This document shows, one piece after another, positions 5,430 through 49,198 of a DNA stretch of 64,000 bases. The DNA lies in NCBI GenBank assembly GCA_948470475.1, contig OX419337.1, positions 27,806,372 to 27,870,371 of the forward strand, read 5' to 3'. The position numbers and the translations under genes are program-made. The notes below the pieces were generated by a model, which had not been told where the DNA came from, ran no database searches, and saw only the letters and a program-made list of their open reading frames with translations. Every line of letters starts with the position of its first letter. Within the stretch, counting starts at the first letter, position 1. This DNA comes from Galaxea fascicularis (Eukaryota > Cnidaria > Anthozoa > Scleractinia > Euphylliidae).

Positions 5430-6713
5430 ATGGCGGCGCTTGCAGCGTGCAAATCATCTTCTTTCAGATTGTTCAGTGTTTTCCAGGCACGTTTTCTTTC
5501 TAAACTACCCAAACTCGCATTTTCGTTGCATCCTTATGAAAAGGTCGTAAATCGTGAATCATTTACTACACTAAATTTTACAAGAACACTGTTTCAAAGC
5601 CACAGTGTTCTGGCTGGTCACGAAGAGGGTGGGGAAGTTCCCAACGAAGAACCTAACCTTGTTCATCCACTGGAAAGGACAATATTTGTCGGCAAGCTGA
5701 TGCCTACAACCACACAAGAATCAGTTAAGGATTATTTTTCTCAGTTCGGGGTTGTTGAAGAAGTGTACTTGAAAGCTTCAACGAAAAATTACGACTTGAG
5801 GTCTTGTGCCTTTGTACAATTTGAGGACGCATCAAGTTTGGAAAAGGTTTGCAGTACTAACCTAGAACATGTAATCGACAATAGAGGTGTGAATGTACAA
5901 AAGTATGCGGCCTCGAATTTAACAAGGATACACGTCTCTGATGTCCCTCTTGAGCTGGATGAAAGCCACCTTAAAGAGCATTTCTCTCAGTTTGGAACTA
6001 TTAATGAGGTCGAGTTTGTCGCTAACAGCTCCTTGGTTGACAGAGAAAGTTATTGTTTCGTGGAATTCACCACACCAAGTGCAGCACTAAAGGCATTGGC
6101 ATCGCCATGGCAACAGATTGGACACCATCTTGTGGAAGTGAAAAAATTTACAGCAAAGAAGCAAAACTATGTAAAAGGGAAGGCTGTCATACATGAAGTG
6201 CCAGACAACATTACTGTTGAAATTTTAAGAGATTACTTTAGTAAATTTGGAGACCTAGTATCCATAGACATGGTGTTCTATGAAAAGAAAGGCAGAAGAA
6301 AGGAAATGGCATTTCTCATTTTTTCTGATGATAAGAGTGTTGAGAGAATAGCTGAGAAGAATGGCAAACACATAATAGACAACGAGGAAATTATCGTGGA
6401 GCGAGCAAGCTCTAATCTCAAATCTCAAGATCGTGATCTGAAAATCTTTGTGGATAAGATTCCAGGAACAGTATCAGAGCTCAAAGTTAGGAAACACTTT
6501 AGCAACTTTGGCCTTGCATATTTAGTCAAAAAATGGAGAAGTGAAGAAAACATATTGAGTTGCATTGTCAAGTTTAATACCAGGGCTGAAGTTGATCGTG
6601 TTATTGCACAAACACCACATGGTTTGGGTGGAGAAAAATTGATTGTGAAAAGGATTGGGTGGACTGCACCTCCACAGGATACCCAGCTTAAAGCTATGCT
6701 GACTTTGCTGTGA
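5430..6713 (+). CDS. four-RRM protein, predicted mitochondrial, intronless (copy 1)
   Basis: This 427-residue single-exon ORF encodes four RNA-recognition motifs at roughly residues 83-160, 165-240, 251-327 and 337-412. Each has an RNP2-like strand (TIFVGKL, RIHVSDV, AVIHEVP, KIFVDKI), the helix phrase 'LKEHFSQFG' or a variant, and an RNP1-like strand (CAFVQF, YCFVEF, MAFLIF, CIVKF). Residues 1-60 are rich in Ala, Ser, Arg, Lys and Phe with almost no acidic residues, which fits a mitochondrial presequence (inference). The RNP1 strands lack the full K/R-G-x-F/Y consensus, so RNA affinity may differ from classical RRMs. It is paralogous to the genes at 32682 and 40943. I recognise no vertebrate orthologue. 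A likely role is organelle RNA processing or stability. Confidence 0.85.
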   Translation: MAALAACKSSSFRLFSVFQARFLSKLPKLAFSLHPYEKVVNRESFTTLNFTRTLFQSHSVLAGHEEGGEVPNEEPNLVHPLERTIFVGKLMPTTTQESVKDYFSQFGVVEEVYLKASTKNYDLRSCAFVQFEDASSLEKVCSTNLEHVIDNRGVNVQKYAASNLTRIHVSDVPLELDESHLKEHFSQFGTINEVEFVANSSLVDRESYCFVEFTTPSAALKALASPWQQIGHHLVEVKKFTAKKQNYVKGKAVIHEVPDNITVEILRDYFSKFGDLVSIDMVFYEKKGRRKEMAFLIFSDDKSVERIAEKNGKHIIDNEEIIVERASSNLKSQDRDLKIFVDKIPGTVSELKVRKHFSNFGLAYLVKKWRSEENILSCIVKFNTRAEVDRVIAQTPHGLGGEKLIVKRIGWTAPPQDTQLKAMLTLL

Positions 6714-7926: not shown

Positions 7927-8688
7927 CTAGAACGTGGACTGTGGAACTTCACGAATAAGAATTCCATATGGGCGCACATCATCATTATCTACTCGAGACA
8001 ACCAGTAATCAGCGCCAGTTCCAGTTATCGAAGCCGGGGCTATTTCAAGGCGACCAGCTCCCTGATCCGGATTAACACGATTCTGTAAAGCAATCTTGTA
8101 TCTTTTCCCTTCCAGTTCAAATTCTTTTGCATAGTGCCTTTCAACCATTTCGAGGCTGGGGCTAGAGTAGATGCCTTTACCGTAGAAATGTCTCGGTCCA
8201 GGTTTATACCCCTCTTTCACGATCATGCTGGCCCTGTTCATATAAGTTCCGTGGTAGGCAACAGGCCATTCTCCAGGTGCTTGATCCGTTCGAATTCCAT
8301 CAGGCCCAAGCCACTCATCATCTTCGTATTTGTCCAGAACTCTAACTGCAAATCGTTTCCACCCGTACGGTCGCTTGTATTCGAATTCACCTCTCATGAA
8401 TTTCTTACCCTCATCTTTCATATCAGTCAAGTCATAATCAAATTTGGGATCCAGGTCATTGCCATCAAACGTTTCCGTAATTAGCCGGGAAACGTCTGGG
8501 TCTCCACGCATCACGAGAATCTGGCCTGTGGTCAAACCACTCTGGTGGCTGCTGCCACGCAAAGTTCGGTCATCTGTGGGGACCTTTTTCAAAAGATCAT
8601 GGACAGAATATCTCCCTCCACTCCTAAAAACAACGTTTTTCCCCAGGATGGCCGAAATTCCAGCGACTAATAACTTGGCATTGGACAT
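7927..8688 (-). CDS. ADP-ribosyltransferase-like protein without ubiquitin domain (ART copy 1)
   Basis: This intronless 253-residue protein has a conserved N-terminal motif shared with its paralogues (MSNAKLL-AG-SAILG then YSVHDLL, residues 1-33), then a linker (about 40-75) and a C-terminal fold. The ART-like signatures are YHGT (His146) and YGKGIYSSP (Tyr174). These match the first two members of the H-Y-E triad of PARP-type enzymes. In the expected third position I see the strand [10 protein letters not shown] and no clear catalytic Glu, as in some mono-ADP-ribosyltransferase or Gig2-like proteins. The position where copies at 30119 and 36672 carry a ubiquitin-like domain holds only about 35 unrelated residues here. 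The ATG at 8688 begins the conserved motif; the frame extends to 8700 only with a GTG. It converges with four-RRM gene 1. Enzyme activity is inferred. Confidence 0.78.
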   Translation of the reverse strand: MSNAKLLVAGISAILGKNVVFRSGGRYSVHDLLKKVPTDDRTLRGSSHQSGLTTGQILVMRGDPDVSRLITETFDGNDLDPKFDYDLTDMKDEGKKFMRGEFEYKRPYGWKRFAVRVLDKYEDDEWLGPDGIRTDQAPGEWPVAYHGTYMNRASMIVKEGYKPGPRHFYGKGIYSSPSLEMVERHYAKEFELEGKRYKIALQNRVNPDQGAGRLEIAPASITGTGADYWLSRVDNDDVRPYGILIREVPQSTF

Positions 8689-9200
8689 TTTAACTGCCAC
8701 GATTGCATCAGCTACTAACGACTAGCAAAATTGAGTTTGTTTTTCCTTACAGTTTCAGTAGCGTAAAGATAGGGAGGACTCTAATTACCCTAAGGCCGGG
8801 ATGCCAACCCTTAAGAACTCTGCTGATTGTAGACCAATGCCGTCATTAGAAATTGTCCTATCCGGCTGAAGTTGTCTGTGTGTGCTATTGAGATTTCGTT
8901 TAAATAATATATGTAGTGCAAACTGTTTTCGAGTTACCAACGACGATGTGTTAATAATTAAAAAAAAAAAACAATGTTTCGTACTTAATTACTAAATCTT
9001 TCTTTTGGTGTTCTAGAAATATATTGGTTATCTGATGAGGGAATAAGCTTCATTGAAATTAGTTTTAACTGGACCACAAAAATATCAGAAATCACCATCC
9101 TTTATCTCTTCCTTTGTTGCCAAAACTTAAAACGCAATCAACCTCCAGCTCATCCAAGATAAGGTGTTCCAGGTGATAATTTAACCACTGAACCCTGGTT
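8689..9200. promoter_or_regulatory. 5' flank of ART copy 1, duplicated upstream of ART copy 2
   Basis: Segments at 8700-9120 are recognisable again at 10943-11480. Shared phrases include GTAAAGATAGGGA, ATATTGGTTAT or GTATTGGTTAT, and CATCCTTTATCTCTTCCT. The duplication that made the second ART gene therefore carried its promoter region. No core element is identified with confidence. Confidence 0.55.
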
Positions 9201-10399: not shown

Positions 10400-10942
10400 C
10401 TACTGCCATGATCCGGGATGACGAGCGGATTGATCAGAACAATCTTGAACTTTTTCCCCTGACACGGGTTCAAACCCTTCTTTCGAAATCATCTCAGCCC
10501 TGCCCGTATCCGATTCCTGGTGGGAGACGGACCACTCGTCATGTGCTTGATCTGCCCTTATCCCAGTAAGATCAATCGAGTAGTCATCTTCACAATGGCC
10601 CAAACCGTTAGCAGCGATTTTTCTCCATCCGTTATGTGGCTTACACTCGAATCCTCCCCTCTTGTATACGACAACATTTTCTTCCAGGCTAGTTAAGTCT
10701 TGGTTCAAGTCCTTTGTAGCAAACTTGTCCGCTGACAGGGCAAAGTCCTGATTTCCATCCTGCTTAGGAATCGGACCTGCGACTGCAACGTTTTGGCCGT
10801 CGCAGCCAGACATAGCTCGATCGTCTTCAAGATGAACCTTTGTCAAAAGATCACCAACAGAATATTTCCCTCCTCTTTTTAACACAACGTTCTTGCGCAG
10901 GATTGCCGAAATTCCAGCGCTCAGTAACTTGGAATTAGACAT
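10400..10942 (-). pseudogene. decayed ART-like paralogue (ART copy 2)
   Basis: The N-terminus is intact (MSNSKLLSAGISAILRKNVV then GGKYSVGDLL), and the middle can be aligned to copy 1 (GGFECKPHNGWRKIA for [34 protein letters not shown] for the ART core). The catalytic YHGT has become SHQESDT. The YGKGIY block and everything after it is lost to a changed frame ending at 10400. A 180-residue product could still be made, but it lacks both recognisable catalytic motifs. It is best read as a pseudogene from tandem duplication of copy 1; a truncated regulatory protein is a weaker alternative. Confidence 0.7.
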
Positions 10943-11374
10943 TTCAATAGCCACGATTACAGCCAGCAAAATTTCGTCTGTTTTTCTTTTCTTAATTAAA
11001 TTACAGTCGCAATTCCAGCAGGGTAAAGATAGGGATGCCCGGATTATGCAAAACCTGACAATTTCTCTGTTGATGAGACCAATGTTTTCTTTTAAATAAT
11101 TGATGTAATGTAACAACGATATGTTACTACTGACTTTGAATAGCTGAGACCAAGATATTGGAACCCCCCAAAAAAGCAAATGTAATGGTTGAGTATTCTT
11201 TAAAATTATTTAAACAGTTTAACAAAGCTATGGATAAGCCTTTTGCAAATTCTTTTTCTTGCGTGTTGTGAAAACGCAGCCAAATATGACCGATCATGGT
11301 TAACTCCAGTCCATCTTTACAGCTCTTTACGGAAACAGCTTCACATGTTTGTTTAGGTATTCTAGAAGTGTATT

Positions 11375-30118: not shown

Positions 30119-31075
30119 ATGTCCAATTTAGAGCTATTAAGCGCAGGATTCTCCGCGATCCTTGGCACAGATGTTGTACCAAAGCAAAAAGGAGAGGAGA
30201 TTTCCATCCATGATCTTTTTAAGCAAACGTATGTGATGAGGCCACCGTCATCCGTTCGCGCGCCCGGTGAGTTTGATATCAATGTGATAACTTTGACGGG
30301 CGACCAAATCGCTATTCGAGTGACGGAGGAACTCTCTGTTGATAACGTGAAAGCTGCTATTCAAGACCAAACAGAAATACCGGTTGAACAGATTAGACTG
30401 ATATTTGCTGGTAAACAGCTTCTTGACTATCAGACGGTGAAGGACTATGGAATAGCACCCAATGATACTGTACATCTTGTTCTTCGCTTGAGTGGTGGTG
30501 GTGCCCCTTTGCCTCGTGCTTTTAACACAGACGAGCTTGATCCGGATTTCGATTACGACTTCACTAATGTTAAAGATAACGGTGAGAGGTACATGAGAGG
30601 TGGATACGAGTATAAGCGACCGTACGGTTGGAAACGAATTGCAATCAAGGTTGTTGGAAGGTACCAAAACGACGACTGGCTCGGTCCGAATGGCATTCGA
30701 ATGGCTGAAGTACATGGAGAATGGCCGGTTTCTTATCACGGAACGAATATGGGAAGTGCCAAGATGATTTTGAAAGAGGGGTATAAACCTGGGCCGAGAG
30801 CTCTATATGGTAAAGGCATCTACACTAGTCCAAACCTTGAAATGGTTGAACGGCTCTATGCACAAGAATTCACTCATCGGGGGAAAACTTACAAAATGAT
30901 TCTGCAGAATCGCGTTAATCCGGATCGGCGAAATGGCAACCTTGAAATCATCCGCGCCTCGCAAACTGGAGTTGGCGCTGATTACTGGTTGTCACCGGCG
31001 TATAACGATGATGTACGTCCATATGGAATTCTTATCCGTGAAGTTCCAAAATCCACGTCCAACCCAGCAGTCTAG
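30119..31075 (+). CDS. ubiquitin-like domain fused to ADP-ribosyltransferase-like domain (Ub-ART 1)
   Basis: The product is intronless, 318 residues. Residues 1-45 are the family N-terminus ([16 protein letters not shown] then ISIHDLF). Residues 52-127 are ubiquitin-like, about 41 of 76 positions identical to ubiquitin in my gap-free hand alignment, ending HLVLRLSGG followed by a third Gly. The Leu8, Ile44, His68 and Val70 surface is kept, as are Arg42, Arg72, Lys27 and Lys48. Lys6, 11, 29, 33 and 63 and Arg74 are replaced. Residues 165-310 are the ART-like fold with YHGT (His207) and YGKGIYTSP (Tyr235), and end [10 protein letters not shown]. The third triad residue is not obvious. The di-glycine is internal, so the ubiquitin unit could be a cleavable moiety, a targeting module or a substrate in cis. 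Activity is not demonstrated. Confidence 0.85.
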
Positions 31076-32681
31076 GCCATGAATTCTTTTGCAACCTCAC
31101 CAGGCATTTGTTTACAACCTTGCCCACAGCCTGCCAAGAAAGGAAAAAAGAGGAAGAGAAAGAGTAATTAGTTTTCTCGTATAAGCAGATCACAAATAAG
31201 TATACAGCATACAGAGACTACACGTGCATTTCTTTTTTTTTTTTGTGATCTTTGTAATGATCAATGTCGGTCAGGGTACATGGGTATACAGATATCAGGC
31301 TTTTCTTAATCAGCTATACAGTTTCTTGCAGTTGAAATGCAGGTATTTGGTAAACCACTTTTAAAAATGTTGATTGTATTGTACCGGTATACTACTTTCA
31401 GGTATATTATAGGCAGTTTTAAGTATTTTGGCATACTGATTTGCCAATACCATCTCCCCTGGCTTATTTTGAATGATGAAATGCAATAATTCCCAACTAC
31501 TTTCTAACAGAGATGAGAGGAGGGGAGGGTGAGTAGATATTTACTCCAGGAAGATGGTATTTTCAAATCCATAATAGTCCATGAAGTAGAGCTAAAATAG
31601 CATTTTTGGTATTTTTAATAACATAGAGGTGCAGGGTTAAGTGCCATGCATTTTAACGGTAACTCTTGATTATAACAGAAAGACGGATGATTAGATAATT
31701 TGGGATATATTTTAATGCCATTGTTGCAGATGAGTTAAAGTACTCAGTGAAGACGTTCTGAGTTGTTTCATTGGTATTTTTCATAGTTACAAACTATGGT
31801 ATAGTTACTATGGTATTTTTGTATGTAATTGATTGTTTTGTTCTGTTACAACTTTACTGGCATTGCAAGCAAATTTGGATAAAATAACATTTCAAACGAG
31901 AGACACCATCTACTGTTTGTTTTATGTTTTATATGCTTGTTACTTTGTGATTAAATGAGAGACACATCACTTGTTCTGCATTTTGTCTTTGTTCAGTTCA
32001 GGACAGAAAGCTTACAAAGTGGGGAATTTGAAGTAAGAAGTCTGCCCATTTCAGGGGCTTTTGATCATTCGTTGATTCCTGTGGGCAGGGACATTTGATT
32101 TAAACCATTAGTGGTTCTTGGGTTCAATGATGCCATCTAGTTCCCTGGTAGAAGAGGCTCTTTTCCTGGTGTTCGCCCTCTTTTCTCCTGTCAGCATTTT
32201 AGACATTGCGCTGTCTTCGAATTTAATTGCGTCTGAATTAAATTTGACGATAGCGCAAGGTATAAACTAGACCTAAGCTACTTCAAATTTTTTTGGGGGG
32301 CATGCTGCCAGATGCCCAGAAGGGTGACAACTTTAACGTACAAATAGACGATTACGCCATAAAAAATCTCACTCTTTGGCAGGGTAGCAATTCATTTCCT
32401 TTTGGGGGAGGGGGGGGTGCTAGCGTGTTATTTAAGACATTCAGTGAACATTTCATTCAAATCATACAAAAACACTCTAAAAGTGCGATCTGTGGTACCT
32501 GACATTTTTTCTATTTGATCTTTCTATTTCTGTTTGTCGTTTTTGATGAAGAACAATTTTTGAATGGACAGAAATTAAAATATCGTAGGTGGTTCCGAGG
32601 TCGGGTGGAGATACGATTTGTCACTTCGAACGCCTGGTCGAATTGTGTCTTCGCAATTGCAATCTTGAGTTCGTGTAGCAA
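31076..32681. other. 3' flank and intergenic, no gene recognised
   Basis: AT-rich sequence without convincing coding features. A short hairpin around ATTGCGCTGTC / GATAGCGCAA lies at about 32208-32260. A G-run (GGGGGAGGGGGGGG) lies at about 32404-32417. The open frame at 32293-32502 has no family signature. Confidence 0.45.
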
Positions 32682-33950
32682 ATGGTTTTTATGGCTAGTG
32701 TTCGTGGTCCTTTTCTTTTTGGAATACTGAAACATGTCAGGACTTCTACTAAGATCAATCCTTGTCAACCATCAAAGAGTATCTTTTGGACTTTATCCGT
32801 TTCTCCTCGTCCTTATAAGCCAAGGAAACTGGGGCACGAATCGAACTTTTTTCTGAGCAGTGATCACTCATCTCTATTTTCAGACGAAACAGGACGTGAA
32901 TTACACGACGAAAGGGTCATATTTGTTTGTGATGTACCAAGAAAAACTCCTGACATCAAAGGGAAACTACGGAAACATTTTTCTTTGTTTGGAGAGGTTG
33001 AGAAAGTATCGCGCATTAGACAAGATATGATGTTGGTATCTTTCAGAAGTGTGGAGGGCGCAAGCAAGGCCTTAAAAGAAAAGCACCTCTTAGAAGGGCA
33101 ATGGATAACAACCTTACCAAATGTCAAAAAGGGAAATTGGAAAGGAAAGTCTAGCAAGATCAAGGTAGAAAACGTGCCACAAAACATGTCGAAAGAAGAA
33201 CTGGTTAATTATTTCTCAGAGTTTGGATCTGTTACAAGTGTTGACTTTATCATTATAGATCCAGATACTTTGCAAAGGAAAAGCTTTTGCTTTGTAGAAT
33301 TTTCAAGCATGGATGAAGCAAAAAAGGCAGCAATGGTTGAAGATCACAAAGTTGGTGTGAGCTCCTTGAAAGTGTCTTTGTCGACGTCCAAGTTAAGTGC
33401 TGTAAAGAACTCAAAGGAGATAATTGTGCGCTCATTACCACATGATATTACTCTTGATGATTTAAAAGAGCACTTTGCACAGTTTGGTTCCTTAGAGCAA
33501 ATAGACTTGATTTACCAGGCACTTGCTCGTCCCCACACAATATATGCCTTTGTGAAATTTGAATCCCCACATGCTGCAGAACAAGCATCAGCAACTTTAA
33601 TCCATAGGATCTGTGATAAGAAGACTGTGGTCCAAAAATCTGCTTTGCCCTACCTCATCAAAAATGGAGACCGTAAACTCTTTATTGAAGGATTTCAACC
33701 AGGCACTGATCCCGAGAAAGTGAGAGCATACTTTGAAGAATTTGGAAAACTGGAGCATGTGAATAAAACTTCAATCCATCCCACTGGAAAAACTTTTGTT
33801 GTTTTTAAATCAAAAGTAAGTTTGCAGCATGTGTTGCAACAAAAGGAACATGTCTTGGATGGCTGTAATTTAAGGATTCGACCAGTTTTATGGAGAAAAC
33901 CAGAAATTGAAAGTATACAGCTGATGAATATGGATGAGTTAATTGAGTGA
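32682..33950 (+). CDS. four-RRM protein, predicted mitochondrial, intronless (copy 2)
   Basis: The 422-residue product has the same architecture as the gene at 5430: a basic, Ser-rich N-terminus (about 1-65) and then four RRMs at roughly 78-150, 158-232, 243-318 and 334-405. Diagnostic phrases are VIFVCDVP, KLRKHFSLFGEVE, KIKVENVPQNMS, ELVNYFSEFGSV, FCFVEFSSM, IIVRSLPHDIT, LKEHFAQFG and LFIEGFQPGTD. The second RRM keeps the best RNP1 strand (KSFCFVEF). A start at the second Met (32691, MASVRG) is equally possible. It converges with Ub-ART gene 2. Mitochondrial import is inferred from composition only. Confidence 0.85.
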   Translation: MVFMASVRGPFLFGILKHVRTSTKINPCQPSKSIFWTLSVSPRPYKPRKLGHESNFFLSSDHSSLFSDETGRELHDERVIFVCDVPRKTPDIKGKLRKHFSLFGEVEKVSRIRQDMMLVSFRSVEGASKALKEKHLLEGQWITTLPNVKKGNWKGKSSKIKVENVPQNMSKEELVNYFSEFGSVTSVDFIIIDPDTLQRKSFCFVEFSSMDEAKKAAMVEDHKVGVSSLKVSLSTSKLSAVKNSKEIIVRSLPHDITLDDLKEHFAQFGSLEQIDLIYQALARPHTIYAFVKFESPHAAEQASATLIHRICDKKTVVQKSALPYLIKNGDRKLFIEGFQPGTDPEKVRAYFEEFGKLEHVNKTSIHPTGKTFVVFKSKVSLQHVLQQKEHVLDGCNLRIRPVLWRKPEIESIQLMNMDELIE

Positions 33951-35733: not shown

Positions 35734-36672
35734 TTATGTTTTTGGAACCTCACGGATAAGGATTCCATATGGGCGCACATCAACTGTGCCTTGTGCTGGG
35801 GACAACCAGTAATCTGCTCCCACACCAGTATTTGTAGCTGGGATGATCTGAAGATGACCATTTCTCTGATCCGGGTTAACACGATTTTGGAGAACTATTT
35901 TGAACGTCTTCCCATTGTAAGTGAATTGCTGTGCATACAGCCTCTCAACCATATCAAGACTGGGGCTGGTGTAGATGCCTTTACCAAACATAGCTCTGGG
36001 ACCAGGTTTGTACCCATCTTTTACGATCAGATTGGCGCTGGTCATGTTTGTACCATGATAGGAAACGGGCCATTCTCCAGGGGCTTCTGCTGTGCGAATG
36101 CCATTCGGACCAAGCCATTGGTCATTGTCGTACCGTTGAATAACCTTGATCGCAATTCTCTTCCAACCGTATGGTCGCTTGTACTGGAATCCTCCTCGCA
36201 TGTACGTTTTGCCATCATCTTTGGCATAAGTGAAGTCGTAGTCGTAATTAGGATCCAGATCGGCTGTATTAAACCCATACGACGAGCCTCCTCCGGGCAT
36301 TCGAATCACCAGATAGATAGTGTCTTCTGGTTTAATTCCATAATCGTTGACAGTTCGATTATCTTCCAGTGGTTTAGCACAATATACCAGTCTGATCTGA
36401 GCCATCGGTATATCTCGCTTTCTTTCGATTTCAGCCTTTACTTCCTCAATGGTGAACTTTCCTGTTACTTCAATCCTTGCGGTTTCACCCGTCAAGCCAG
36501 TGACGTTCAGATTGAACTTATCTTCACCCGGAGCTTCCAAAGCCAATGGTCTCATCACATAAGTTTGGCGGAAAAGATCATGGATAGAAAATGTGCCTCC
36601 GGTCGTCTGTGGCACCACCTCTGTGCCTAGAATCGCGGAAAATGCAGCGCTTACTAACTCCAAATTCGACAT
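35734..36672 (-). CDS. ubiquitin-like domain fused to ADP-ribosyltransferase-like domain (Ub-ART 2)
   Basis: The intronless 312-residue product is a clear paralogue of the gene at 30119: N-terminal motif (MSNLELVSAAFSAILG then FSIHDLF), ubiquitin-like domain at about 53-129, and ART-like domain at about 164-310. His206 is in YHGT and Tyr234 is in FGKGIYTSP. The ubiquitin-like part is more diverged than in copy 1 (TIYLVIRMPGGG at its end; AGKQ has become CAKP; Ile44 has become Val) but still ends in Gly-Gly. I placed the start at 36672, where the family N-terminus begins; the frame is open to 36729 upstream. It converges with four-RRM copy 2. Confidence 0.85.
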   Translation of the reverse strand: MSNLELVSAAFSAILGTEVVPQTTGGTFSIHDLFRQTYVMRPLALEAPGEDKFNLNVTGLTGETARIEVTGKFTIEEVKAEIERKRDIPMAQIRLVYCAKPLEDNRTVNDYGIKPEDTIYLVIRMPGGGSSYGFNTADLDPNYDYDFTYAKDDGKTYMRGGFQYKRPYGWKRIAIKVIQRYDNDQWLGPNGIRTAEAPGEWPVSYHGTNMTSANLIVKDGYKPGPRAMFGKGIYTSPSLDMVERLYAQQFTYNGKTFKIVLQNRVNPDQRNGHLQIIPATNTGVGADYWLSPAQGTVDVRPYGILIREVPKT

Positions 36673-36830
36673 TTTCAGGAAACGTTCCTCAAAGGTAAAA
36701 ACTGAGCAACGGTACCGACCACCGACCACTCCTTTGTTTGGCTGTATTCCTTCCGGTCTTTCTTGGAAAGGTAGACCGATTTAAATACAAAGCGGAAGTA
36801 ATTATAACTGTAGGTGAAGCGGAGGACACA

Positions 36831-38138
36831 GAGGGTCCAAAGTAGGTTTGGCGGGATGCGGGATGAGGCTTAAAATCAAGGCGGGATGCGGGATACGAAA
36901 AATTTTAGGGGCGGGATACGGGATGAAACTTCCCTGGCGAGACCGGGATGCTTGTATTTTGGCAGGCGGGATGTGGGATGTTTAAAAACTTAATGGCGGG
37001 ATGCGGGATAAAACACGTGAAAAAAGACCTTCAAAAACGGCCATAAAACCTCTTTCAGCAAGATCTCTGTTGATAAAGGAAGTTTTATTTTGGCACACGG
37101 TGCTCAGTGGCGATCTGTTTACACTAAAATAAATACTTTATGATGCATCTGTCATTACGCGGAGTGCGATTGGTTGGTGCTGGGATCCAATTTGACCCCA
37201 ATTTGGATCAATTTGCGTGTACATCGGTGTTCGTGTTCGTCCATTCGTCCAAGGCGCGCAGATACTGATCTGACGATACCTTGTTTTACAATGTGAAATG
37301 AGTTTGTAGACTCTTAAAACAGCTTGCATTTTTTTACTTTTTTAAAGGTCACTTTAACTCTTAAAATCTTTCAGTTGTTTGAAGTTGAAAGTAGGGTATT
37401 TATTGTACTGCGCGAACAGAATCTTGTTGGTTTGTCTTAGTGAAAACAAGACAGCATGCAAATAGACCAAATAATTACTATCTGCTTGTTAGACCATCGC
37501 TCAAAGATCGGCAATATGAAACGCATGTCACGATAAAACAACAGATAGGAGATAGGACAAAGAGCACGCTATTTCATCAATATATATTTTATTTAGAATT
37601 ATCTCCACGGTTTGACTTGTTTACTTTATAGATTATAGAGGTCGGTTCGAGGTCGTTTCTGGGCATGATGGCGACACCGCCGGTAGCCTCGGGCTCATCG
37701 AAGGCAGAAAAGGAAGAAGGTGATGCGAAGGTTTTGTAGGAGAGGAAAGTGGTTTGGGAAACCAGCAAGTTACCCGAGATGTCGACTTTCTAGTCGGTGT
37801 AACATCCCGATTTGGTCGTCCAGTACGGTTTAACAGTCGATTTGTTTTTTAATTTCTGTATACCTTAAGTGGCCCTAGATGAACCGAAGCTCACGTAAGT
37901 AATTCTCTGAATACGTATTAAAATTAAATTAATTATTAAAATCTGAATTGCCATTGAGCTAATCAGTCACAGTTAGTTAAAATGGGTATAAAATTGACTT
38001 TCTCATTTACTATAACGATGAATACTTACGGAGTTTTATGGCGGGATCGGGATGGAGGCTGTCGATATGGCGGGATGGCGGGATAAGGCCGAAAAGGGTG
38101 GCGGGATGCGGGATTGCAAAACCCTATTTTGGACCCTC
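36831..38138. mobile_element. 1.3-kb non-autonomous TIR element with internal GGCGGGATGCGGGAT repeats
   Basis: The ends GAGGGTCCAAAG and its near-complement TTTTGGACCCTC are flanked by GACACA at 36825-36830 and 38139-38144. The duplication may be up to 9 bp, GACACAGAG, depending on the exact border. Clusters of GGCGGGATGCGGGAT and variants lie just inside both ends (36854-37015 and 38040-38115), as subterminal repeats usually do. No transposase frame is seen. It sits about 160 bp upstream of the Ub-ART 2 start. Confidence 0.8.
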
Positions 38139-38184
38139 GACACAGAGGTGGACCAAAATTTTTAAATTGGGCCACTGGGCCCGA

Positions 38185-39192
38185 AAGTTCTTTTAGTCAA
38201 ATTAAGCTCGTTGGGGTGTCCAGTTCAACACTAGAATGGTTCAGGAGCTACATGCATGATCGCCAGCAGTATATACGAATTGGCTCTGAAATGTCTGGAA
38301 TGTGTAAATGTACATTCGGAGTTGCACAAGGATCCATCCTAGGGCCGGCATTATTTAATGTTTACATGAACGATTTGCCGGGCGTTCCAGATTACTGCTC
38401 CTTAGAATCCTATGTAGATTATTCCAAATTACATCTGTCATTCTTGGTTAAAGATATCGATAGCGCAGCTCGACAAATAACCGAAGACCGACCTGAGGAA
38501 AGTGGCTGCATGGTGCTGCCAAAATAGCCTTCTGATTAACCCAGATAAGACGAAATTGCTTTTAATTGGCACCCGTCAAATGCTTCAAAATACGCCTACA
38601 AATCTGGATTTACATGTTACTTTACTGAGGAAAGAGTTGTGTGTGGTTGTTTCAGCGAAGGACCTTGGGGTGTATATGGACGCTACATTGAGTTTTGATG
38701 AACATATAGCAAGTGTTACACCTTCTTGCTTGTCAAGTTTAATAGGGTGAAACACCTTATTAAACGTTGTCAGTGCACTGGTCTTAAGCAAACCCTTTTA
38801 TTGTTCATCTCTCTGGTCTAGTACGGATAAAAATATCAACAAATACACAATGTCCAAAACTTCGCAGCCAAGATTATAACTCGTTCGCAGAAATTTGATC
38901 ACATTACCCATTCTCAAAGAACTGAAATGATTGTCTGCGAATCCATGCTTTTTTTTTACAGTGTGTTTAAGGAGACTGGCCCCTGACTATCTTGTTAAGA
39001 AGTTCAAAAAGAGGTCTGAAATCCACAATAAAGACACACGGAACAAGCAGAAGATGGACATCCCAGGGTACAGATTTTAATCATTTATTGTTCGGCTATA
39101 GTTTTACATATTTTATTGCCGAAAATTGTAATTACTTTGAATAGCCAGAATTTGGAAAGTAATAAAGTTATTATTATTATTATTATTATTAT
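38185..39192 (+). pseudogene. LINE reverse-transcriptase relic, frameshifted, with ATT tail
   Basis: Two overlapping frames (38185-38527 and 38502-38750) read as the palm of a non-LTR reverse transcriptase: STLEWFRSYMHDRQQYI, then GVAQGSILGPALFNVYMNDLP, then YVDYSKL where an active enzyme would have Y/F-ADD, then LLINPDKTKLLLIGT in another frame. The catalytic Asp pair is lost and the frame is broken. The sequence ends in AATAAAG followed by (TTA)n at 39165-39192, the tail of a target-primed insertion. The 5' end is truncated. It is inactive. Confidence 0.8.
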
Positions 39193-40942: not shown

Positions 40943-42214
40943 ATGAATGTACGCAGTTCTTTCTTTGTGTATCAGTCATTTTCTAGGCTGTTTTCTAGGT
41001 TTGCCAGGTTGACACAACAGGTTCGACCTCTGATCACAGGAAACCCGTCGCGCAGTCCTCGCCAATATGGCGACTTATCGATGACTGGTACGAGAATTAT
41101 CTCCACTAACGTTCCATTGCTTTCCGCGGAGGAACACCCCAAAAAACTAGAAAAAGTATTGAGAGTTCATGAAAGGACAGTATTTGTTACGAACTTTAGA
41201 AATCCTGTGACTGAGGAAACGCTGCGAGAGTATTTTTCTCAATTTGGTGAAATTGAGAATTTTGAATGGGTACGAACGAAAGTAACGCGGCGAACCAAAG
41301 GTTACGCTTTTGTAACGTACAAAAACAAGGAAGACTACGCAAACGTTCTTCGCCAGTCTCATATACTGAATGGTGGCCAACTGATTGTTAAAACAAGCCG
41401 TCCAATACTACCCGAATCGGATACCACGTGCTTCGTCATAGTCAATAATGTGGATGCAAAAATGCGAAAAGAGGATTTGCTGGAACACTTTTCAAAATAC
41501 GGTACTGTGGTGGCAATTGATTGGCCGATTGACAAAGTGGCACGTTCCAGACTTGACCATTGTTTTTTGCAGTTTTCGTCGGAGGAGGAAGTTGAAGAGG
41601 CGGCAAATGATGAGAGACAGATACTTGGTGACCAGGAAGTTTTGGTGCGGAAGAGTACCTCCAGGATTTCGAAACACTTGACCACTACTAACAGGCTGCT
41701 GGTTTTAGCAGACTCAACTGTGGAATCCATTGCAGCATATTTTGGAAAGTTTGGAGAAGTGGAGGCAGTTTGGGGGAATTTTAAAAGTGTTGGACCCAAT
41801 TCCTCTGTTATTCCAATGTTTTCTGTTGTATTCAAGAAAGCCAGTTCTGTTCAAGAAATTAGCAAGCAATCCCATTTCATTAATGATCAAGAAGTTTTCA
41901 CACTACGTGGTGTAAACAAACCTATATTTCAGTTTGAGAAGAAGATTGTTGTAGATGAGTTGCCTGATCTGGTGTCTGCTGAAAATGTTATTCAGCACTT
42001 TCAACAGTTTGGTCCTATTCAGCATTGTCATTTCGCAGAAGATCCAAGAAATGGTCAAAACCTAAACTGTACCATTAACTTTTGTCACCAGGAGAGTGTG
42101 AGGAAAGCAATGATTAATGAAAACCACAATTTATGTGGCAAGCAAGTAAGAGTCCGACGTGTTGGATACAGACATGTAGATAAAACTTCAATGGAGATCA
42201 TAAACCATTTATGA
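40943..42214 (+). CDS. four-RRM protein, predicted mitochondrial, intronless (copy 3)
   Basis: This 423-residue single-exon protein has an Arg/Ser/Phe-rich, acid-free first 45 residues (MNVRSSFFVYQSFSRLFSRF), which is the most convincing mitochondrial presequence of the three copies. RRM1 (about 78-152) is the best preserved in the window, with TVFVTNFR and KGYAFVTYKN fitting RNP2 and RNP1. RRM2 (about 162-237), a degenerate third unit (about 250-328, RLLVLADS and AAYFGKFGEVEAVW) and RRM4 (about 340-415, KIVVDELP and NCTINF) follow. Spacing matches the copies at 5430 and 32682, so the three are paralogues. AATAAA at 42614-42619 is a possible poly(A) signal. No ART partner is seen on its 3' side. 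Confidence 0.85.
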   Translation: MNVRSSFFVYQSFSRLFSRFARLTQQVRPLITGNPSRSPRQYGDLSMTGTRIISTNVPLLSAEEHPKKLEKVLRVHERTVFVTNFRNPVTEETLREYFSQFGEIENFEWVRTKVTRRTKGYAFVTYKNKEDYANVLRQSHILNGGQLIVKTSRPILPESDTTCFVIVNNVDAKMRKEDLLEHFSKYGTVVAIDWPIDKVARSRLDHCFLQFSSEEEVEEAANDERQILGDQEVLVRKSTSRISKHLTTTNRLLVLADSTVESIAAYFGKFGEVEAVWGNFKSVGPNSSVIPMFSVVFKKASSVQEISKQSHFINDQEVFTLRGVNKPIFQFEKKIVVDELPDLVSAENVIQHFQQFGPIQHCHFAEDPRNGQNLNCTINFCHQESVRKAMINENHNLCGKQVRVRRVGYRHVDKTSMEIINHL

Positions 42215-45322: not shown

Positions 45323-47083
45323 TTAGTCATTTCTCAAATATTCTTTCAGGGATGACAACATGAACAAAATTCCATTGTTCTGGGCACTTTTACAAGCAAC
45401 AGCCGCCTTGTCGTACAATGATGATGCTTCGGTTTTACTTTCTTCCACTTCTCCTGCTACCTCAAACAGTTTGCTTTTGTCGAATGCAATTTTGCTCTTA
45501 CAAATCAAGCGAAACGCGTCCGTGTAGGTATCTTCAGACTCAGTTTTCAAGTCCGGCTCCTCCAGCCTTTGAACGCAGCGTTCTGCTTCTTCAAGGTCCG
45601 AAACACAGCTGGGACGGCGATCGAAACCCTTCTTTGAAAACCCAAGATGCAGACGTGCTTTGTCGGCAAAAACAAATCTGAGATAAAAAGAACTTCTAGG
45701 AACGCTGTCCATGTTTCTCTGGCACAATTCGATGATCGAATTCCAGACGGGCGTTAATCTTTCTTTCTTGTTTTCCGGTAAGCCCTCTTCGTACAATAAA
45801 CAGTCAGCAATGCGTTTCAAGCAAACAATCTGCTCTTCTGGGCTCTCCATGGCCGACACCATCATGTATGCTTGCTCCGCCAACGCCATTGACTCGGGAT
45901 ATTTTTCTTCGCACACCAATTTTAATGATTTTCTTGCCAGTGCCCTCGCTATAATTCTCTGACAATTTTCTCCAGCTCTCGAAGCATTCGCAATGGTATC
46001 ATTTAACAAATCCGTGGCTTTTTCACTCTCGCCCTGTATGTTGTAGCCATAGGCGAGTTCAATCTGCACAAAGAGTTTTGTCGCCGGGTCTGGAAAGCAA
46101 TTGAGAAAAAATGCCGATCGCCGTCGTAATTTTTCCCAGTCTTTCTTGTAAATATCGTTTGTAAAAGTCCTCATAACAAGTTTGTAATGTTTTGGATACT
46201 TCGAAGTTGCCCGTTCAATTGTTTCTGGAGAACTAGAATTAAGAATTTCTACCATTTGCTTACTTGGAGCAAGAAAATCGATATAAGATCTTGCTATTTC
46301 GGGTTCCGTCTCACTCAACAAATTCAGAAATGCTGAAATAGCGTTTGTTCCTTTGTAAACAACATAATCTATAAGCATAGCAAGTTTGATCTCTCTGTTA
46401 TGCTGCTTTTTAATATTTTTAACTTCTCTGTTTGATAGAATGCCTAGATCTTTCATCTGACCAAGGTACGGTCTTGGGTTGAAATCCTTTAACGCAGACA
46501 GCTTCTTAGAAAAATACTCTTCGTATTCTCGTATGGCCTCTTGTTCCCTCGCCAGTTCCGCTTTCAGTTTTATAACTTCATCCGTGTCAAAGCTTTTATC
46601 TTTAGCAATTGCTTTCAAGTCTTTCAAGGCAGATCTTGAAAGATTAAGGTTTCTGAAGCAAGCAATAGCTTCAGAGCAAAAGCTTTGAAAGTCACTGTCT
46701 TCCACCTCATCGTTTGGGGCGATGTGGCAAACATCATTTCGGAGCATACGAAGACGATCTATTTCGTCATACTTCGAAGGATTTCTTTTCTTTAGGTCAG
46801 CTCCAACAGAATCAGAGTACAGAATACAGTAAAACAGAATGGAATTATCAAAGTGCGACGAGTCACCATTAACGATTGTTTTCAGCACTTCCCTGTTTCG
46901 TTGCCGATTAAAAAATGATTCATTCAATAAAAACTGCCTTCCATCTTGCCTTCTGTCGCGCCATTTTGAACCATAAAACCTGCGCCACTCTTCCTTAAAC
47001 AGTTTTCTCAAAGCTCTTGAGAAAATGGTTATAACGATGTGTATCATCCGAAAATAGTTAAGCTGTTCAGTTGAATACGGCAT
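45323..47083 (-). CDS. HEPN-CARD-helical-repeat protein (putative innate immune sensor)
   Basis: This intronless product has 586 residues counted from the ATG at 47083. The frame stays open to 47203, but only with GTG, so an upstream exon is possible. Residues about 1-150 form a DZIP3-type HEPN domain (NYFRMIHIVI, LRKLFKEEWRRFYG). RNDVCHI gives the R-x4-H motif (Arg115, His120) of HEPN nucleases. Residues about 160-200 are a charged coiled coil. Residues about 203-270 read as a death-fold domain, best as a CARD (YLGQMKDLGILSNREV, MLIDYVVYKG, AISAFLNLLSET). Residues about 310-580 are paired helices resembling TPRs (LAYGYNIQGESEKATDLLND; ESMALAEQAYMMVSAM). I infer a signalling or sensor protein in which CARD recruits partners and HEPN may act on RNA. 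No NACHT or NB-ARC ATPase is present. Confidence 0.75.
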   Translation of the reverse strand: MPYSTEQLNYFRMIHIVITIFSRALRKLFKEEWRRFYGSKWRDRRQDGRQFLLNESFFNRQRNREVLKTIVNGDSSHFDNSILFYCILYSDSVGADLKKRNPSKYDEIDRLRMLRNDVCHIAPNDEVEDSDFQSFCSEAIACFRNLNLSRSALKDLKAIAKDKSFDTDEVIKLKAELAREQEAIREYEEYFSKKLSALKDFNPRPYLGQMKDLGILSNREVKNIKKQHNREIKLAMLIDYVVYKGTNAISAFLNLLSETEPEIARSYIDFLAPSKQMVEILNSSSPETIERATSKYPKHYKLVMRTFTNDIYKKDWEKLRRRSAFFLNCFPDPATKLFVQIELAYGYNIQGESEKATDLLNDTIANASRAGENCQRIIARALARKSLKLVCEEKYPESMALAEQAYMMVSAMESPEEQIVCLKRIADCLLYEEGLPENKKERLTPVWNSIIELCQRNMDSVPRSSFYLRFVFADKARLHLGFSKKGFDRRPSCVSDLEEAERCVQRLEEPDLKTESEDTYTDAFRLICKSKIAFDKSKLFEVAGEVEESKTEASSLYDKAAVACKSAQNNGILFMLSSLKEYLRND

Positions 47084-49198
47084 GATGAAGTCGTTGGCGA
47101 GTTCCAAATGGTATTTCAAACGGGCTGGTAAATTACAATTGCGTAAAAAATAGTGCACATTAGGGCTTAATATATGCAGTACCCGCTTGTGTACTTGGGT
47201 TTTTCATGAGTTTCTTTAGCACTTTAATTTACACTGCAGAGTTAATTCTCTGTTTCACCACTTGTGTTTTAATGAGTTACGAAGCGAAAAGCAATAATTT
47301 GAAGTGGGCCAGAATTCTCAGCTTTTCGCTTTCAATTTCTGATCTCCTGATTCGATACTCTGAAATTCAAACACAGCCGGAGGCACACATCAACACTGTT
47401 TTCAACGCAAGATCACCGGCGTTCTAGTGAGTCTTGTGATGTAAAAACGTCAGATGCCAAACTGTTGAATTTATATGGAGTTGGGTTGACTAGTCCCTTG
47501 CGGGCGTAACTTCACGCCCGCAAGGAATTATGGGAACGCGACCTCTGGGAACGAGATTGATCTTAGACCAATGTGCGCAAATACAGCAGAATCATAGGAA
47601 TGTCCAAGAGTGATAAACCAGAATAAAATGATTGAATTGAAGCAATACTAAGCAATGTTAAAGTTAACCAGTTCCATTCAGGTATGGTCCGCTTTCTAAC
47701 CGTAACAGTTCTGGTTTTTCACCCGAGGCCGTCTCTAACCTGAGACACTGGCAACCACAAACTTGATGCGTAAGGCAATACAAAGGACATCCAATGGTAT
47801 CTTTAAATATAACTGTATTTCTTTCATAAATTAACACAAGAATAAGATTCACTTTACAAGCAGAACAGTATCCCTACTCATCTTTACAATAAATTAGGAA
47901 TCCAATTTAAAGTTCTATTAATGTTTATAAAGCGCACAAAACAGTTTGAAAAATCAAGGTTGGAAATTTCTTCAATTTGATGCAATGAATGAATGATTGA
48001 TGCAACAATATGAATAAACCACACAAAGCTATCAACATGTAATACCTCCTTTCGATATTAGCCCTTCATGAATAAACAAGCTTGGGGAAGGCTATGGGAT
48101 TAAGGGACATGGTCAGCTAAAGCCACATTGTCTTCAAGGTGTTCACCAAATTCTCCCAACAACTATCACAAAAAATGTACAGAAAAGTGGAGAATCAAGG
48201 ACACAACCCTTTCCCATTTGACCTGGCTTCACTTGACATGTTCTATTTAGTTTTTGACACCTTTTTCACGGCACCTGTATCAAGTAATGTTTACAATATG
48301 AGCGGCAGTTGTATCACTATTCACAAACTCGAGGTAAAGCCAAGAGGTTGTAGATGTGATATACAACAATGACAAAAATATAGTAAACTACTTATTCAAC
48401 ATCAGGATTCTGCAGTCATATTCATCGATTATTTTTGTGATACAAAATATTTAAACGCAGAAAATCCAACCAAACGTTTATGTAGAACATGAGAATGTTG
48501 TATCAGATATACAGCTATTGATTAATAAAACAGTTCCTTTGTTTTTCCTTCATGAATTATTAATGACTTGAATAGTACGTTTTACAACATTCACCAGAAC
48601 CAACACTGGCACAATACTTTTATGATTACATGTACACGTACGATTGTAAGTTCTACATGTAATACAGCCGCACCCCTATTAAGCAGCCACCCCAAGGTAG
48701 CCAGTAATCAAAGTCCCAAAGAGTGTTCTTCTATTGTTTTTACCTCAATAAAGTGGCCAGCCCCTATTAAGTGGCGGCCTCTACCCATTTTCCTGCAAAA
48801 CAGGTATGTATTTAGCCAAGCGCGAAGCACAAGTTATTGCGGGTAAAGTGCAAGACATGTACTCCACACCCTGTTATGCAGGCTATTACCCATCTGCCCA
48901 GGGGGACTGTTAATAAGTAGTTGAAATGCATTTCCTAATGCATTATAAACAAGTCTTGAAAATACAGTAGAAAGTTGACCCTCAAACCCCTAACTCTCAA
49001 ATAACGTGGTATGCAGTTTAATCCAACAACATTGTCATTTACTCCACAACTGTACTCAGAATCCAGCTTCACAGAAGCTGGCTGTGAGTGTTCATGAAGT
49101 GTTCTGTTTGTGAGTTTTTGACTCCACACTTCTGGCGCCATCCACAGATCACTGTGAGGTAATTCAGTTGTATTATGTCAAGGATGGTATGTACTGTA
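47084..49198. other. intergenic with small hairpin and dispersed repeat
   Basis: Lies between two minus-strand genes. A compact hairpin, CCTTGCGGGCGT / ACGCCCGCAAGG, lies at about 47493-47524. At about 48665-48780 is a dispersed repeat with CCCCTATTAAGCAGCC and CCCCTATTAAGTGGCG. No gene is seen. Confidence 0.45.

Follow-up and report, generated by a model that had tools for sequence, protein, structure and literature searches.

What does a ubiquitin-like domain do when it is built into the same polypeptide as a fold of the ADP-ribosyltransferase (ART) type? The question is raised by an intronless gene of the coral Galaxea fascicularis, located at positions 30119..31075 of the plus strand of a window of 64,000 nucleotides (the whole stretch of DNA analysed, to which all coordinates refer) and encoding a protein of 318 amino acids (P0001). 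The initial annotation, made from the letters alone, proposed this fusion and suggested that the ubiquitin unit might be a substrate in cis, an autoinhibitor, a docking module or a releasable modifier. The fusion was borne out, and its architecture is shared by a large eukaryotic family, here termed Ub-ART, the members of which have ubiquitin and ART domains in the same order across distant eukaryotes, a retained Gly-Gly and conserved His and Tyr residues. The explanation that best accounts for the findings as a whole, to which we assign a probability of roughly 0.5, is a three-part eukaryotic family in which the ubiquitin part is processed after Gly-Gly, freeing an NAD+-dependent ART.

Gene and domain layout

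The reading frame of P0001 opens with ATG, closes with TAG and has no internal stops over its 318 codons; the start is occupied by Met in 104 of 115 aligned rows. An overlapping minus-strand ORF (30248-30739) was rejected, as the plus frame is the conserved one. The encoded order is N-terminal segment, ubiquitin, Gly-Gly-Gly and ART, all on the plus strand. The conserved N-terminal segment (residues 1-42; 30119..30244) is modelled as helix, strand, helix. The ubiquitin domain (residues 52-127; 30272..30499) ends in LRLSGG and is identified by PF00240 and by its identity to ubiquitin. A third Gly directly after the Gly-Gly (30500..30502), present in 100 of 122 rows, forms the putative cleavage junction. 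The PARP-type ART domain (residues 135-309; 30521..31045) carries YHGT (residues 206-209; 30734..30745) with the catalytic-type His207, and YGKGIYTSP (residues 230-238; 30806..30832) with the catalytic-type Tyr235; both motifs are conserved and align to YHGT and YGKGVY of PARP10. On the last strand (299-308 in the model) lies Arg300-Pro301-Tyr302 (31016..31024) and, in the register that we infer, Glu is absent from the expected third catalytic position.

Both motifs had been noticed at the outset, together with a spacing of about 35 residues between the Gly-Gly and YHGT. The spacing is in fact 78 residues, much of which is the conserved N-terminal part of the ART domain. Chance resemblance is ruled out by the E-values, the model and the conservation, and the architecture and folds of the chain are near certain: neither a missing ART fold nor a missing ubiquitin match at residues 52-127 was found. 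The initial annotation had overlooked the N-terminal segment and the C-terminal tails, as well as the further copies present in the window.

The ubiquitin part and its Gly-Gly

The HMM search proposed for the ubiquitin part gave a clear match of residues 54-124 to PF00240 (E 5.6e-23; 80.9 bits against a cut-off of 25.4), and a Foldseek comparison with ubiquitin structures gave TMt values of up to 0.98. The alignment of residues 52-127 to ubiquitin 1-76 is free of gaps and has 41/76 identities, exactly the number previously estimated by hand. P0001 retains R42, I44, H68, V70, R72, both glycines, K27 and K48, and has lost K6, K11, K29, K33 and K63; it ends in LRLSGG rather than the canonical LRLRGG, with Ser at position 74. 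The earlier description of this copy (Arg42, Ile44, Arg72 and the di-glycine kept, five of seven lysines lost, an extra Gly after LRLSGG) was therefore correct.

To place these features in the family, we used an anthozoan list (P0001 and the best 120 of its 686 matches, in which all six named rows are anthozoan) and another, non-anthozoan list, gathered with a ubiquitin-bearing query that biases its Gly-Gly, ubiquitin and residue counts upward. The loss of lysines is true of the anthozoan copies and no mark of the whole family: K6 is kept in 23/110 rows of the anthozoan list against 81/103 of the other list, and K11 in 16/109 against 72/104. The mean identity to ubiquitin over positions 3-71 is 0.405 in the anthozoan list and 0.68 in the other. 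Both glycines are present in 93/111 anthozoan-list rows and, with the upward bias just mentioned, in 101/106 rows of the other list. Ranked by ubiquitin identity among the 76 positions, G75 and G76 come sixth and fourth in the anthozoan list and third and sixth in the other. The 18/111 anthozoan-list rows without Gly-Gly have a body identity to ubiquitin of 0.376, only a little below the 0.417 of the remainder; among 26 named rows checked, only one Hydra row and Ambispora lack it.

The residue after the Gly-Gly is Gly in 161/194 rows and otherwise A, D, R, E, S, Y, H, F, N, M or W; Pro was found there in 0/194. In eukaryotes, intact ubiquitin fusions are normally cleaved after Gly76, and the kept Gly-Gly and the pattern of residues that follow it are what would be expected of a processing site, short of proof. 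Arg at position 74, which is used by many deubiquitinases, is present in only 33/110 anthozoan-list rows. Three proteins of the anthozoan list (P0092, P0099 and P0110) have no ubiquitin match yet carry an NRLAGGG or NRLTGGG stub ahead of the ART; in P0092 this ubiquitin-tail-like stub occurs twice, in similar form.

The ART domain and its catalytic residues

The proposed search for a PARP-type domain succeeded for the family and not for the window copy. P0001 has no Pfam ART match even at E 10, whereas in alignment A2, made up of the window piece and 119 relatives, 87/120 rows match PF00644 at E ≤ 0.1 (best, 1.3e-7). Ten relatives were also scanned singly; eight match PF00644, one of them (P0218) above the gathering cut-off (31.8 against 26.7 bits). 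An NCBIfam scan of five proteins returned only Rad23, for four of the five and far below cut-off. Because a fold search with the full-length model showed only ubiquitin rows among the best 50 matches listed, the ART was modelled alone, and this model matches PARP structures. In the rows listed, the mono-ARTs PARP16, PARP10 and PARP12-15 share 11-17% identity with it; Ub-ART differs from them in having its own front part and in sitting behind a ubiquitin domain. A profile of the ART compared with solved chains gave PARP13 as the best match (E 2.5e-5), and exotoxin A and cholix chains as weak ones (E 0.056-1.3), as expected between ART families. In the full-length model, ART residues 211-229 fall below pLDDT 50. 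An ART-like fold had been rightly anticipated; the further suggestion that the Gly-Gly tail might reach the ART cleft is unsupported by the full-length model, in which tail residues 126-130 have pLDDT < 50.

Of the anthozoan-list and other domains, respectively, 115/119 and 156/156 have the His of YHGT, and every one (119/119 and 156/156) has the Tyr of GxGxY. At the last strand we found no Glu, the third catalytic residue of poly-ARTs, in the family, in a register that is inferred, as the PDB alignments end before this strand; RPY stands there instead (R300 in 117/118 and 153/155 of anthozoan and other domains, Y302 in 118/118 and 155/155). The family has its own conserved front part, RG..Y.RP.GW.R...WLG....EWPVSYHGT, and the further motifs QNRVNP and RPYG. 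Among human mono-ARTs that lack the Glu, PARP16 is listed as H-Y-Y, and both PARP10 and PARP12 as H-Y-I; PARP13 is listed as Y-Y-V and inactive (PMC7955679). By analogy, Ub-ART should be a mono-ART family, perhaps of the H-Y-Y type, and its ART is likely to be active as such.

The N-terminal segment

The mean column entropy over the 124 rows of the anthozoan list is 1.35 for residues 1-42, 1.98 for the ubiquitin part and 0.97 for the ART. With the ubiquitin cut off, a profile of 73 anthozoan N-terminal segments aligned to one of 91 other-list segments over 42 columns with an hhalign probability of 96.2, and 43 of these 91 segments are matched at E ≤ 0.01 in single-sequence comparisons. Matches were found in Rotaria (E ~3e-8), in several Glomeromycota (down to 2e-7) and in Hydra (1e-4 and 0.008), and weaker ones in Bryopsis (0.011) and Dictyostelium (0.02-1.6); in the single-sequence scan, Daphnia and four named ascomycetes gave E > 1 or no match. 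These comparisons support a shared N-terminal segment in rotifers, Hydra and Glomeromycota, and make one possible in the remaining lineages.

Distribution and origin of the family

A search with P0001 returned 686 proteins at E ≤ 1e-3. The named anthozoans among the matches listed are Acropora millepora, Porites evermanni, Montipora foliosa, Orbicella faveolata, Oculina patagonica and Actinia tenebrosa, and the nearest named relative among them is that of Acropora (77%). A 121-residue ART query gave 134 proteins at E ≤ 10; it admitted only proteins of about 67-211 residues, such that longer fish proteins could not appear, and the best 120 include seven bony-fish proteins with an ART alone and one match from GEM-RC1, a eukaryote. 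The fish proteins (P0207, P0211, P0217, P0219, P0222, P0233 and P0236) are 155-209 amino acids long. A third search, started from a metagenome relative in which the end of ubiquitin is included, returned ordinary polyubiquitins as well as the named full-length proteins that follow.

Full-length Ub-ART proteins occur in the fungi Hyaloscypha, Cenococcum, Elaphomyces, Cladonia, Glomus, Gigaspora, Racocetra, Dentiscutata, Acaulospora, Ambispora and Rhizophagus, and in Rotaria, Daphnia, Hydra, Dictyostelium and Bryopsis. Among the 355 proteins collected, 348 have an ART match and 275 a nearly complete ART. More than 60 residues precede the ART in 220/275, of which 217/220 have a ubiquitin match; the other 55/275, some of them fragments, are too short in front to be judged for ubiquitin. 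The order ubiquitin, Gly-Gly, ART is general across the family.

No confirmed relatives were found by short exact patterns in three scans of viral contigs or in two scans of prokaryotes (one genome each of 84,980 species), or by tblastn in phage records. Within the limits of these scans, a viral or bacterial origin was set aside. When predicted viral proteins were searched by structure, PARP-like matches were obtained, the best at E 2.4e-4. Ub-ART appears to be a eukaryotic family, either ancient or spread from one eukaryote to another. In a quick, unrooted tree, the Hydra proteins group with the rotifers and one further row (support 99), apart from the anthozoans, possibly owing to transfer or to a long-branch effect.

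C-terminal tails

The ART end is complete in 118 anthozoan-list proteins, and in 50 of them position -4 is Cys (CSLQ, CSLM, CSLL, CSIS and others, including one CSSR, a poor CaaX box). Elsewhere in the last 12 residues of the 118 proteins, Cys occurs only once, and it makes up 0.7% of residues overall. We read the Cys at -4 as a predicted CaaX prenylation box. In two other lists, Cys is found at -4 in 9/155 proteins (7/48 and 2/107; one, CKTS, is a poor box) and often at -5, where it belongs to the last ART strand. A loose basic, nuclear-signal-like pattern was found in ten anthozoan-list proteins. Of 79 anthozoan-list rows placed in a tree, the Cys is seen in 35 and a strict basic tail in 5, with at least 14 changes of Cys state, a count that comes from a quick tree with 61/136 inner branches open and that wrong gene ends would inflate.

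P0001 itself ends in NPAV, with neither a CaaX Cys at -4 nor a basic tail. Beyond its TAG (31073-31075), and outside its ORF, the next 31 codons (31076..31171, plus strand) still read as the basic tail (KKGKKRKRK) of P0002, a 97% identical relative. In many relatives, the chain stops only a few residues past the ART.

Paralogues and neighbouring genes in the window

The window holds four family members: two with ubiquitin, one without and one decayed. The second ubiquitin-bearing copy (35734..36729, minus strand) has 331 amino acids when read from an upstream GTG, with the homologous Met at 36672; it matches PF00240 at E 3.8e-17 and PF00644 at E 0.043, below cut-off. A third copy (7927..8700, minus strand) has the N-terminal segment and the ART but no ubiquitin domain, and the decayed copy (10400..11179, minus strand) retains the N-terminal segment and, in damaged form, the front of the ART. 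Between the copies at 30119 and 35734, dN is 0.21 for the N-terminal segment, 0.42 for ubiquitin and 0.15 for the ART, and dN/dS is 0.13, 0.17 and 0.13, ratios that are rough, as dS is > 1 throughout. All three parts look constrained, with the ubiquitin part apparently drifting fastest. Relatives that apparently lie on common contigs suggest that there are tandem clusters elsewhere too.

Three paralogous RRM genes on the plus strand (5430-6713, 32682-33950 and 40943-42214) encode proteins of 422-427 amino acids with three or four RRM stretches each. They are interspersed with the Ub-ART copies; one or two stretches of each score above the cut-off for the third RRM of PARP14, and RRM_1 scores higher. 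By eye, their N-termini resemble mitochondrial presequences. An immune-type gene near the cluster (45323-47158, minus strand) encodes a CARD protein (E 4.2e-6) with a weak DZIP3-type HEPN match below cut-off. The window also contains an alpha-glucosidase-like gene (~21.7-26 kb, plus strand) and, within the duplicated region, a reverse transcriptase fragment (38114-38527, plus strand; PF00078 E 1.2e-4, below cut-off) that may be the remains of a retroelement.

Relation to known systems

As in the ubiquitin-ribosomal fusions eL40 and eS31, a ubiquitin-type domain ending in Gly-Gly precedes an unrelated C-terminal partner in Ub-ART; FUBI-eS30 has the same arrangement. P0001 differs in that its ubiquitin is not N-terminal, with 51 residues preceding it, and in that the partner is an enzyme fold. 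ZAP contains zinc fingers and WWE domains and is not known to carry a ubiquitin domain. ZAP-L/PARP13, the best solved-chain profile match, resembles the many anthozoan-list members with a predicted CaaX box in having a C-terminal CaaX box of its own, which in ZAP-L is farnesylated, puts the protein on membranes and is required for antiviral activity (PMC8568172), and differs in lacking the catalytic His (PMC7955679). PARP9/DTX3L, SidE and CteC likewise join ubiquitin and ADP-ribose chemistry (PMC11668277), but these act on a separate ubiquitin, whereas that of Ub-ART is in the same chain.

Ubiquitin-related domains are described in two of three PARP4-clade PARPs of Acanthamoeba, as are E2 domains in PARP6/8 (PMC4245714). 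These proteins, too, combine an ART and a ubiquitin-system domain in one chain; they are assigned in that work to other PARP clades. Fish Gig2 proteins are PARP-like, virus-induced and expanded in a lineage-specific manner, are reported as not found in invertebrates, and have a conserved C-terminal domain after the PARP-like part (PMC3617106). Ub-ART has no such domain. Membership of P0001 in Gig2 was rejected: its ART ends at ~309/318, and in the alignment the later columns are poorly filled and variable and the tails mostly short. We recognized no Ub-ART fusion among the titles and abstract starts listed, although a prior description is possible. The theme of joining the ubiquitin system to an ART is known (PMC4245714); this family, which has a conserved front part of its own, does not seem to have been described in the literature searched.

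Proposed mechanism and alternatives

In the mechanism that we favour, the ubiquitin domain would be read by the ubiquitin machinery of the cell, most likely by a deubiquitinase that cuts after the Gly-Gly and so releases a free ART. The ART, apparently lacking Glu at its third catalytic site, would bind NAD+ and transfer single ADP-ribose units. Once freed, the anthozoan enzyme could be directed to membranes by CaaX prenylation or to the nucleus by a basic tail. A role in defence or stress, suggested because of the tandem duplication, divergence and tail switching, would be the least secure step, and an immune role, drawn from the expansion, the CaaX analogy and the neighbouring genes, is a guess. 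The ubiquitin-less paralogue in the window, three anthozoan-list rows and the fish proteins suggest that the ART can do without ubiquitin. Given the conserved Gly-Gly, a releasable modifier fits best of the four roles first proposed. The poorly kept R74, the anthozoan-list rows without Gly-Gly and the absence of either tail from P0001 speak against our explanation. Processing after Gly-Gly has about even odds, ahead of a purely docking role.

In that docking role, which we consider possible though not probable, the ubiquitin domain would never be cut and would serve, as ubiquitin-like domains do in many enzymes, as a built-in regulatory module, recruiting the ART to ubiquitin-binding proteins, to the proteasome or to E3 complexes, with the Gly-Gly-Gly as a hinge. 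The character of the hydrophobic patch is indeed kept in the anthozoan list (I/L/V at position 44 in 96/111, V/A/I/L at 70 in 102/111 and Y/F/H at 68 in 99/111), R74 is not kept, as expected if no cutting is needed, and the tail is modelled at low confidence. A hinge, however, should tolerate Ser, Ala and Asn, whereas in both lists the two glycines rank within the top six positions of the domain for identity to ubiquitin. It is unlikely that the ART is a pseudoenzyme scaffold like ZAP/PARP13, assembling complexes at membranes with partners recruited by the ubiquitin domain: the best profile match is to PARP13, in which the PARP domain is inactive and the CaaX box antiviral (PMC8568172), and the catalytic Glu is not seen, but PARP13 also lacks the His that, with the Tyr, is nearly invariant in Ub-ART, and PARP10, PARP12 and PARP16 are mono-ARTs despite lacking Glu (PMC7955679). 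Equally doubtful is the idea that P0001 is a decaying duplicate. Its TAG precedes a tail that is still readable, and a clearly decayed paralogue lies in the same window, yet all three of its domains are intact, short ends are common among its relatives, and dN/dS for the pair is < 0.2 in each domain, a measure that is blind to recent relaxation.

Least probable is a role of the ubiquitin domain as an inhibitor of the ART or as a target that the ART modifies in cis, at Arg42 or Thr66. Known systems ADP-ribosylate ubiquitin at R42 and T66 or attach ADP-ribose via G76 (PMC11668277); R42 is present in P0001 and in 100/106 rows of the other list, and T66 in 92/111 anthozoan-list and 89/106 other-list rows. 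Ordinary ubiquitin keeps R42 and T66 anyway, however, and G76 has no free carboxylate unless the chain is cut. Position 42 is Arg in only 47/111 anthozoan-list rows, and Asp in 36/111, while the ART there is highly conserved; the SidE-like modification of Arg42 initially suggested is disfavoured there, and is disfavoured as the main role. Autoinhibition by the tail draws no support from the full-length model, but may still occur. Scarcely more probable is a bolder form of processing, in which a deubiquitinase cut after the Gly-Gly would yield at the same time a conjugable modifier (the N-terminal segment with ubiquitin and its free Gly-Gly) and an ART whose targets are this ubiquitin or its conjugates. 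If true, this would make Ub-ART a self-contained unit of ubiquitin/ADP-ribose signalling, the ancestral eukaryotic equivalent of what PARP9/DTX3L and SidE carry out, and one that corals would have expanded for immunity; its two products would be targeted differently by a prenyl or nuclear tail on the ART.

Implications

Ub-ART proteins are found in corals, fungi, amoebae, rotifers and algae, a distribution suggesting that two major protein-tagging systems were linked long ago. In the known examples of ubiquitin and ADP-ribose cross-talk that we examined, the enzymes meet ubiquitin as a separate molecule. A single chain in which the Gly-Gly is kept while the body of ubiquitin drifts makes both an early joining of the two systems and processing at the junction directly testable, and the members in Dictyostelium offer a tractable host. 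In anthozoans, the switching between CaaX-like and basic tails may provide compartment-specific versions of the protein, with possible relevance to invertebrate immunity.
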